From: Desmodesmus armatus
Lineage: Eukaryota > Chlorophyta > Chlorophyceae > Sphaeropleales > Scenedesmaceae
Assembly (NCBI GenBank): GCA_007449985.2
Contig: VIIQ02000191.1
Coordinates: 80,562-144,561, forward strand
Length of the DNA stretch: 64,000 nucleotides
Reading direction: 5' to 3'
How positions within the stretch are numbered: position 1 is the stretch's first letter; each line of letters begins with the position of its first letter. Under the pieces are notes generated by a model. That model saw nothing but the letters and a program-made list of their open reading frames with translations. It was not told the DNA's origin and did no database searches. Below, piece after piece: positions 26,101 to 63,976 of the stretch. A program made the translations under genes and the position numbers.

Positions 26101-29100
26101 ATTGTGGCGTGACTGCCTACTTGAAGGTCAGAAGGAAACAATGTGTCTGGTGGCATGACAGCTACACGGCAAGAGCTGTCCTTGCCATAGCCACAACAAA
26201 ATCGTTAACCGCCTGCCCCTGCTGCCCCCCCCCCCCGGGAAGGGGCTGCTTCCCCAGAGCCAAGGCAGACGGCAAGCCGTCCACCAAGGACGCCTCAGCT
26301 GCTGCCGTCATTGCTGTTCCATACTGACGATACTGCTGCTGCTGCTGCTGCCTGCACTCCTCCCCTGCCAAAACTCCTCCCCCCCCCCCCCCCCCCCCCC
26401 CCACACACACAGGGCCAAGGCAGGGGGCAAGCAGTCCACCAAGGACGCCACCGGCAAATTTGCCCGCTCAGCAGGCAGCAGGCTGCGGCGCTACAACGAG
26501 ACCGCACTGTCACGCGACATCACTGCTCTGTTGAAGGAGTGGGGGACACTGCTGGCGGCTTCTGGGCTGATCTTTGTGGCGGCACCTGGCTCAAACAGCA
26601 AGTAGGTCAAAGTGTTGGCTGGTGTGGGTGGGGGTGTGTGGGGGGGGAGGGGGGGGGGGCGCAGGCAACATCATGCAGTCATTGTAGTTGTGGAGGAATG
26701 GGCGGCGGGTGAGGGTGTGCCAACCATTTGTGGGGTCAACATGGTGGCTGCCCTCTTACGGGATATCACTGCTTTGCTGAAGAAGTGGGGTCCATTTCTG
26801 CTGGCTGCTTCTGGACTTAATTTGTGGCAGCACCTGGGTCAGACAGCAAGTACGAGGGTAGGGGGGGTTGAGCGGGTGTGGCAGTGGTGGCGGTTTTCTG
26901 TGGATTGCCAAGCATAGGTGTGGCTGTCAAAGGGGTCAAAGGTCAATGAAGGCTACAGTGCCACACTGAGGCTGCACTGTCGCAGGACATCACAGCAAAT
27001 GCTGAAATGATGGGGGTCCTGTTGGCTGCTGCTGGCGGCTGAAACGCGGAGTGAAAAATGCACTCCTTACCTGCAGCACAGCATCATCGACTGTCCGCCT
27101 GTTGACATGCCACCGCAACATCCTCCTGCCCACTCCCCACCCCCTGCTGAAATGATTGCACACAGGGTCCTGTTTGATGCAGCAGCAGAAGCAGCACCAG
27201 CCGTGCGGCAGGGTTCAGGCGCCCCGCTAGACCCTGCGGACCCCCGTGTGAGACGCGTGCCCTTTGTCACTCAGCGCCCAACCTTTTCAGAGCTCAAGCG
27301 GGTGCTCTGGGTGCTGGGGGGAGTGAGGAGGGTCACTCTTCCGGATCCCACACAGCAAGCAGCAGCAGCGGATGCGGCTGGTGAACAGGAGGGGAAAAAG
27401 AAAAGCAGGATAAGGCGGCTGCGGCTGCGGCGGCGGCAGCAGCAGCGGCGGCAGCAGCAGCGGCGGCAGCAGCAGTGCCAATGCCGGCTGTGAAGAAGCA
27501 GGTGGGTCTGTCTGCGGGGGTGTGGTAGTGGTGCTGTGGGTGGATTTGAGGCGTGGCGGGGAGTGAGGAGGGGCACTCTTCCAGATCCCACGCAGCAAGC
27601 AGCAGCAGCGGATGCGGCTGGTGAGGAGGGCCAGAAAGGCAAGCAGCAGCAGGATAAGGCGGCTGCTGCTGCGGCAGCGGCAGTAGTGCCGATGCCGGCT
27701 GTGAAGAAGCAGGTGGGTCTGTCTGCGGGGGTGTGGTGGCTATGGTGCTGCCTGGTGGTGTTTTGGGGAGTGACGAAGGCTTGTTGTTCCAGGTTCTGCC
27801 CAGCAAGAAGCAGAGGCAGCAGCAGAAGCAGCAGTGTCTGTTGCAGGCTGCGGGTTGTGGTGGTGACCAAGAGGGCGAAGAAGATGAGCAGCAGGAGGGT
27901 CAGGAAGGGGAGTGGCTGCGATGTCGATGTCATTGAGAAGCAAGGGTGTGTGGTGGGGTTTTGCTGACGCAACTTGCCCTCCTTCTTATCGTGTTGGTCC
28001 CAACCTGATGCAGCAACCCCCGTACAACATGTTTTTTTGTCCTCCCCCCCCCCCCCGCTCTTGCAGGAGGACCCACCCCTGATCAAGGCGTCCAAGGCTG
28101 GTGATGCTGAGCGAGTGTCACGGCTGCTGGCCAACGGGCACGACCCCACAGCACGCGACGCCAAGGGCCGCAGCCCCTACCAGCTGGCAGCCAACAAGGA
28201 GGTGGGTGGGTATGGGTATGGGGGTGGGTCTGTGGTTTTGGTGTGGGTATGGAGTGTGGATGTGGGGTGTGGGCCTGTCACAGGGTGCAGCCAATGGTTT
28301 GTGTTGTGCTGTGGGTCGGGAAGCCCCTACCAGCTGGCAGCCAACAAGGAGGTGTGTGGGTGTGGGGCTTGGGATGGAGGTGTGTTGTCGTGATCTGGGT
28401 GTTGTGCTTGGAGGTAGCCAACAGAGATGCCTGGGTGTGGGTGGGGAAAAGATGGGTGCGGGTGTGGCTGTGGGTGCGGTTGCGGGTGTGGGCCTGTCAC
28501 TGGGTGCTGCTAGTGAAGTGTTATGTGGTGTGGGTGGTGTAGCCCCTACCAGCTGGCAGCAAACAAGGAGGTGGGTGGGTGTGGTGCTTGGGTGTGTTGT
28601 GGTGATGTGGGTGTTGTGCATCCGATGCACCTGAGGTAGCCAACAGAGATGCCCGGGTGTGGGGTGGGGGTGGAGATGGCCGCAGGTGTGCGAGTGTGGG
28701 TGCGGTTGCTGGTTTGGGCCTGTGACTGGGTGCAGCCAATAATCTGTGATGTGGTGTGGGTGGCACAGCCCCTACCAGCTGCCAGCCAGCAAGGAGGTGT
28801 GTGTGGGAGTATTGCCAGTGCAGGAAAAATAACGGGCTCCATCTCCCATACAAACAGTCACAGCGGCAGGGATTGGCTCAGCAACAAGCTGAGGTACCTT
28901 GAGCCCGTGAGTTGGACGTGCGCATGTGGGCAGCTTGTCAACTTGTTGGCGTTTAGCCGTGAGTTGGGGTTGCAAAACAAACATGGGGTTGTGCAACCAA
29001 ACTGGCTGTTATGTGCTTGGCCAGTGGGTGCTTGTGGAATTGAGTTGGCGGCCTAAGCCCTGGAGACCGTGACACGTCAAGCTGTGCCTTGCTTGAACTT

Positions 29101-63756: not shown

Positions 63757-63976
63757 CTTCCACACTTGAAGCAGCACCACCCTCGGCCCCACACTCCTTG
63801 TTGTGCTGCCAGGCACAACGCTGAGCCCTGCCTTGTACAACCAGGGGTCAACCGACACACCCAGTGCCACTGTCATAGCCTGTGCCCCTGGTACCTCTGG
63901 TGTGAGGGGCAGGGAGACCTGCCAGGGCCTAACAGGGGATGAGAGGGACCAACGCGTGGCCAGGTGCGCACCAGAC
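63757..63976 (-). CDS. Single exon of an unassigned gene
   Basis: Reverse strand, bounded by ACCATGCAG and GTGAGAAC; phase 2 in, phase 0 out. Encodes 73 residues including SGAHLATRWSLSSPVRPWQV, SLPLTPEVP, MTVALGVSVDPWLYKAGLSV and VVLLQVWK. It could be an upstream exon of the C2 gene beyond the LINE, but its outgoing phase does not match the first C2 exon directly, so another exon would be needed. The family is not recognised. Confidence 0.5.

Follow-up and report, generated by a model that had tools for sequence, protein, structure and literature searches.

Exon-end copies beside coding borders in Desmodesmus armatus: local duplications associated with G and C runs

The window, by which we mean the whole 64-kb stretch of Desmodesmus armatus DNA shown above, contains genes in which one end of an exon is repeated a short distance away. 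We call such a copy an echo. The sequence-only reading had described exon-end copies in six genes, and all six places were confirmed: Vms1 (26259-32701), a gene at 33.7-35.9 kb, bL17 (40114-41271), a ubiquitin protease (42608-43764), a gene at 54.7-55.0 kb and the right-edge exon (63534-63858). The similar segments are between 24 (31480-31503) and about 150 bases long, or longer where whole tandem units align; they are 73-100% identical, and most include the exon border. The gene names Vms1, L17 and ubiquitin protease, first given from the letters alone, are backed by homology or by Pfam matches in the window to VLRF1, L17 and ubiquitin hydrolase. A Pfam scan of the HTATIP2-like protein as modelled here gave no match. 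The nearest homolog of the Vms1/VLRF1 protein is P0001 of Tetradesmus obliquus (55% identity), and the matches of six Vms1 homologs stop at 26602, 28204 and 29396, at most 3 bases from the borders of our model. The echoes in the window are as follows.

26259-26294, plus strand: echo of the start (acceptor side) of Vms1 exon 26413-26601, in the upstream intron; 92% over 36 bases; border backed by homologous proteins
26739-26880, plus strand: echo of the end of Vms1 exon 26413-26601 with donor; 73% over 144 bases; translated matches of P0001 and P0003 at 26747-26809
27318-27775, plus strand: two copies (offset 240) of a poorly conserved Ala/Gln-rich coding stretch of Vms1; either copy may be the exon; self-comparison
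28322-28366, plus strand: first echo of the end of Vms1 exon 28067-28201 with donor; 96% over 45 bases; homolog matches stop at 28204
28541-28596, plus strand: second echo of the end of the same exon (28067-28201); self-comparison
28766-28803, plus strand: third echo of the end of the same exon (28067-28201); self-comparison
29139-29181, plus strand: echo of the start (acceptor side) of Vms1 exon 29277-29393; alignment to the exon
29539-29617, plus strand: echo of the end of Vms1 exon 29277-29393 with donor; extents of 76+138 approximate the offset of 216, hence a whole tandem unit
30908-30988, plus strand: second echo of the end of Vms1 exon 29277-29393, displaced by an inserted repeat (about 29681-30820)
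31174-31290, plus strand: echo of the start of Vms1 exon 31826-32007; self-comparison
31480-31504, plus strand: short echo of the start of Vms1 exon 31826-32007; self-comparison
31571-31626, plus strand: echo of the start of Vms1 exon 31826-32007; self-comparison
32662-32701, plus strand: echo of the end of Vms1 exon 32332-32554 with donor; 92% over 40 bases
33727-33859, minus strand: partial copy of the last modelled exon (33972-34139) of the gene at 33.7-35.9 kb, past its stop; 96% over 133 bases
34322-34458, minus strand: echo of the start (acceptor side) of exon 33972-34139, gene at 33.7-35.9 kb; alignment
34915-34992, minus strand: echo of the start of exon 34662-34757; the copy takes in intron sequence and a G run; self-comparison
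35346-35827, minus strand: three copies around exon 35509-35621, 182-base unit; self-comparison
40232-40274, minus strand: echo of the start of bL17 exon 40028-40156; alignment
40366-40620, minus strand: two echoes of the end of bL17 exon 40709-40878 with donor, in 170-base tandem units; alignment; L17 by Pfam
41024-41271, minus strand: two echoes of the start of bL17 exon 40709-40878; alignment
42863-42996, plus strand: echo of the end of ubiquitin-protease exon 42455-42716 with donor; 88% over 135 bases; family by Pfam
43616-43764, plus strand: two echoes of the end of ubiquitin-protease exon 43185-43504; alignment
54936-55021, minus strand: echo of the start of exon 54551-54808, gene at 54.7-55.0 kb; alignment
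63534-63641, minus strand: echo of the end of the right-edge exon (modelled 63757-63918) with donor; 92% over 108 bases

Other features of the window were noted as well. The repeat inside the tandem unit of the Vms1 intron (29681-30834) terminates in a long TG tract, and a query with its 30000-30600 portion matched 34 places in the genome, itself included. On the minus strand, 56868-62587 carries two long open frames of 1264 and 651 codons that look like a non-LTR retrotransposon, with an Exo_endo_phos match just under the cut-off (24.2 vs 24.5). Internal telomere-like CCCTAAA stretches occur at 33139-33201 (partly palindromic) and at about 39340-39390. CAG/CTG repeats are very frequent in 36477-56224, and many read as glutamine or alanine tracts.

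We analysed the window together with 25 regions of 10 kb, chosen by position and not by content and spread over four contigs, for a total of 314 kb of an assembly of 116 Mb in 831 contigs. Repeat pairs came from a masked self-comparison (BLAST score 20, copies at most 800 bases apart), and one 3-mer shuffle was run at the identical score cut-off. Gene models came from our own small exon finder, a two-strand model trained on this sequence, with presumed echo copies blocked and three window genes set manually; it replaced earlier exon predictors that fused genes or took echoes for exons. The resulting border set comprises 534 modelled splice borders. The Vms1 exon end at 32554 was scored as terminal though it is really a donor, and some modelled starts may be acceptors. 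Echoes are by construction copies of the gene's own exon within 600 bases. Twelve echo-bearing models lie outside the window; pieces of six were scanned and matched the pyruvate kinase, hydroxyisobutyrate dehydrogenase, Clp protease, Rieske, prismane and isoamylase families.

The local duplications are real and widespread in this sample. The 314 kb yielded 242 direct pairs, 13 inverted pairs and none in the shuffled sequence, which rules out pure chance as the source of the copies. At offsets up to 600 bases the counts were 214 direct and 10 inverted, the close spacing and direct orientation that characterize tandem duplication. Noncoding copies of exon ends were present at 40 of the 534 splice borders, and echoes occurred in 15 of the 26 regions, on three contigs beyond that of the window.

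Duplications and G/C runs group by gene across the regions, with some genes rich in both. The first window gene, L029 and L030 have 9-16 introns, no duplications and at most one run-bearing intron. Region L018 holds a five-exon gene (5287-6786) with echoes at three splice borders and also a five-intron gene without duplication.

Most echoes appear to be dead copies. The splice dinucleotide is retained in 55 of 57, and most of these pairs lack indels; where indels are present, 14 of 17 break the frame, so the reading frame is not kept in the way expected of an alternative or duplicated coding exon. At two Vms1 echo segments (29541-29612 and 30909-30980), four of the six homologs match with the exon's own residues, as do two at 26747-26809. 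Because the homologs match exon and echo with identical residues, those proteins carry the piece once. The indels and the single piece in the Vms1 homologs rule out translated exons for most echoes. Differences between echo and exon at codon positions 1-3 are 0.065, 0.055 and 0.141, and given this third-position excess a few arrays may be coding. In region L013 (8905-9835), the start of a pyruvate kinase exon belongs to an array with a unit of 147 bases (49 codons), present about five times, and the copies differ mostly outside codon position 2; this array may include coding copies, 9067-9654 being a possible exception. The suggestion that divergence grows with distance did not generalize: among 12 borders with several echoes, the nearest echo resembled the exon more than the farthest did in 3, equally in 6 and less in 3.

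Placement relative to exon borders was compared with a random expectation from 300 random shifts of the 214 pairs at offsets up to 600. Pairs joining a splice border to noncoding sequence numbered 57 against 20.3 expected (sd 5.3, top shift 40), and start/stop-border pairs 10 against 2.9. Pairs in which exon interior was copied without the border were depleted (8 vs 24.3). The remaining classes were pairs with both copies coding (33 vs 44.1), genic pairs with both copies noncoding (50 vs 47.3) and pairs outside genes (56 vs 69.0). With the window left out, the respective values were 35 vs 15.6, 8 vs 2.0, 6 vs 17.8, 32 vs 35.4, 38 vs 34.6 and 55 vs 63.0. The enrichment at borders that the sequence-only reading had led us to look for, roughly 3-fold in the whole sample, thus replicates outside the window.

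That reading had gone further and proposed a process aimed at exon borders. The enrichment stands; the targeting does not follow from it, since tandem duplication with one coding end, combined with coding constraint and unequal detectability, can account for the excess. Merging pairs gave 39 independent arrays at splice borders, 9 at starts or stops, 24 in noncoding genic sequence, 11 with both copies coding, 4 in exon interiors and 25 outside genes; 45 of the 48 border arrays have offsets within 108-265. Under a tandem geometry model in which tolerated units are placed uniformly, the one-border share should be 0.42-0.49. The uncorrected count exceeds this, with 48 of 72 arrays against 32.2 expected, and 47 of 61 against 30.0 at offsets of at least 100. 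An excess also appeared in all four age-matched settings (20/34 vs 14.8, 26/45 vs 19.5, 37/58 vs 25.5 and 43/67 vs 29.9; P 0.001-0.045). However, the noncoding half of border arrays was detectable at the same threshold at only 8 of 40 borders (4/15, 1/16 and 3/9 from young to old). Dividing the 14 noncoding arrays by 0.20 lowers the border share to 0.40, against about 0.49 expected, so border targeting is probably unnecessary to explain the enrichment. This correction presumes a tandem origin, that is, that the intron half was copied, and it therefore speaks to whether targeting is needed and not to whether it occurs.

G and C homopolymer runs are closely associated with the duplications, as had been suspected from the spacers in the window. 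Introns with a run of at least 8 contained a duplication in 28 of 49 cases, compared with 18 of 218 introns without one (odds ratio 14.8). The odds ratio was 6.7 within genes, 25.3 for the window alone and 11.7 for the other regions (P 4.5e-8), and the excess was present in three intron length classes. A run of at least 7 lay in 25 of 43 splice-border gaps, as against 28 of 488 background intron pieces, in agreement with the claim that spacers are usually G or C runs. The excess extended to the gaps of noncoding pairs (17/32), start/stop pairs (5/9) and pairs outside genes (11/41), the background pieces giving 28/488 and 33/670; among pairs with both copies coding, 1 of 16 gaps had a run.

The runs have a polarity. 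Between a border and its nearest echo, the 18 donor spacers contain 24 sense-G runs and 1 sense-C run, and the 22 acceptor spacers contain no sense-G and 13 sense-C runs. All spacers in which one run type outnumbers the other follow this pattern (11/11 donor and 10/10 acceptor), the other 7 and 12 having no excess. Four of nine start/stop gaps show an excess and follow it too, one of the four being really a donor. Run density is 6.99 per kb (38 runs) from border to echo vs 4.41 (24 runs) past the echo. Duplication-free introns have run polarity of like sign in weaker form, so composition contributes.

Copied intron sequence is demonstrable in about half of the cases. Homology of more than 15 bases on the intron side was found in 29 of 57 pairs (p<0.02), and 30 of 54 spacers were homologous to sequence past the echo (p<0.05; about 3 by chance). 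Sorted by exon-echo identity, spacer homology was present in 18 of 26 pairs at or above 92% and 12 of 28 below, and intron-side homology in 15 of 27 and 14 of 30, so the age trend is weak. In 60 pairs from a looser list, mean intron-side identity remained 0.51-0.62 out to 120 bases; mismatched pairs gave 0.23-0.34. After homopolymer compression, the sum of exon and intron extents equals the offset in some arrays and is smaller in others, with near-exact tandem units at 29393 (76+138 vs 216) and in L033 (50+59 vs 108). Some young echoes end 2-5 bases from the border (31825, 40156 and 63756). The median length of the high-identity segment is 49 bases on the exon side of the border and 7 on the intron side, and 30 of 32 pairs of all classes at or above 96% identity have a gap of more than 20 bases.

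The explanation that we consider probable is recurrent local tandem duplication, linked to G/C runs, with coding constraint deciding which copies persist. Units, most of them about 110-260 bases long, would be copied in place in direct orientation. Stretches with G/C runs would be hot spots: the association is observed, and the cause may be stalling or breakage at G tracts, followed by a backward switch of template or by the joining of an end that had been partly extended. Duplication inside an exon, or of an entire exon, would damage the protein and mostly be lost. By the logic of splicing, a unit that is intronic or has one coding end should be tolerated, as the authentic splice site would still be joined to its exon. 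A tandem unit with one coding and one noncoding end yields an extra copy that must carry the border, and exon-interior copies cannot arise from it directly; copied exon pieces would thus nearly always include the border. The copied intron half would diverge and slip fast while selection holds the exon half in one copy, as is partly observed, so the visible remnant would often be the exon echo alone. Repeated rounds would give multiple echoes and longer introns. Against this reading stand the 24 of 54 cases without a homologous spacer, the young echoes that end so close to the border, the uncorrected excess of border arrays, an age trend in only one of three tests, and third-position differences above those expected of a dead copy beside a constrained exon.

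A process directed at borders, in which splicing, transcription-linked breaks or template switching at outward G runs copies the exon end and its splice site, would fit several of these data directly: the surplus at splice borders and the deficit in exon interiors, the short intron part of the high-identity segment, the gaps in nearly all of the most similar pairs, the uncorrected array excess and the outward G runs. We nonetheless consider it unlikely, as the intron was demonstrably copied in about half of the cases, modelled start/stop borders are equally enriched, and noncoding pairs share the link to G/C runs; the start/stop enrichment and the noncoding pairs also weaken any cause confined to splicing. 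That G runs drive polar copying outward from coding borders, placing the copy beyond the poly-G on the outgoing strand, with polarity a property of the mechanism and the process a main source of intron length in this lineage, strikes us as quite improbable. The polarity could instead be explained by selection on splicing, which is possible, although we would lean against it, and is compatible with the tandem-duplication reading. Duplications would then occur everywhere, and copies of splice sites would survive only if the spliceosome is directed to the authentic site by a G run that follows the authentic donor or a C run that precedes the authentic acceptor. The opposite runs in donor and acceptor spacers and their higher density on the near side of the echo are in line with this. 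Passages of a study in human cells report that, when elements lie between two splice sites in competition, it is mostly the intron-proximal one that they suppress (PMC1877881), which here would be the echo. However, purely noncoding pairs have an equal run excess, and introns free of duplications show the same polarity in weaker form.

Gene conversion from the exon might refresh old echoes and make their exon-derived parts look younger than the surrounding intron. Among 23 pairs of echoes compared with each other, the exon-derived parts are 93% alike and the intron parts 83% on aligned columns, with random pairs at 76%. This contrast is partly ascertainment, because echoes were found through their similarity to exons, and identity on gapped columns is a weak measure; we doubt that conversion is at work. 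We give almost no credence to an assembly artefact. Homopolymer-rich spacers are hard to assemble, and our assessment used the assembly alone; however, the copies differ by substitutions and indels, they recur across regions and contigs, and an inserted repeat interrupts one array. Tandem duplication linked to G/C runs under coding constraint is the reading that we favour.

The idea that introns grow in this way is supported by their lengths. The 34 echo-bearing introns have a median of 640 bases, which falls to 354 once echo offsets are subtracted; the median of 220 introns without detected duplication is 276. The difference between 354 and 276 is not significant (P 0.18), with over-subtraction in some cases (3 of 34 fall below 50), and long introns also give duplication more room. 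Echo offsets make up about 10.3 of the 23.6 kb in these 34 introns. In a table in PMC5966456, T. obliquus has 57% GC and introns averaging 462 bases, longer than those of four other green algae. Duplications of the kind described here offer a concrete and datable mechanism for intron lengthening. Gene finders should be used with caution on such sequence, since echoes get called exons, as happened with our own finder. The tie between runs and duplications, strand-opposite at donors and acceptors, is experimentally testable.

Short local (paired) duplications are known in eukaryotic genomes, and tandem duplication is a common type of short insertion. The copies described here resemble them in direct orientation and in spacing of tens to hundreds of bases, and differ in their tie to G/C runs and coding borders. 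Some arrays reach three to five units, as in minisatellites, but most have two or three copies, and the unit spans an exon border. Among the titles and abstract openings of open-licence literature, we found no report of exon-border echoes. In C. elegans, G-quadruplex motifs provoke breaks with junctions 50-300 bases away, and tandem duplications arise through the same end-joining machinery (PMC8654963). This is similar to the cause suggested here in that G-rich tracts provoke breaks and end joining gives tandem duplications. It differs in that the outcome reported at those motifs is deletion, the tandem duplications being described in helq-1 mutants, and the passages concerned make no link to introns. 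Intron gain through tandem genomic duplication of an exon segment containing AGGT, as outlined in sections of a review (PMC3443670) and in Drosophila cases (PMC2891723), likewise involves local tandem duplication of exon sequence with the extra part spliced out. There, however, the unit as described is exonic and a new intron arises between AGGT copies, whereas here the duplication extends an intron already present, the copied unit frequently takes in intron sequence (29 of 57), and 55 of 57 echoes carry the dinucleotide of the same border.
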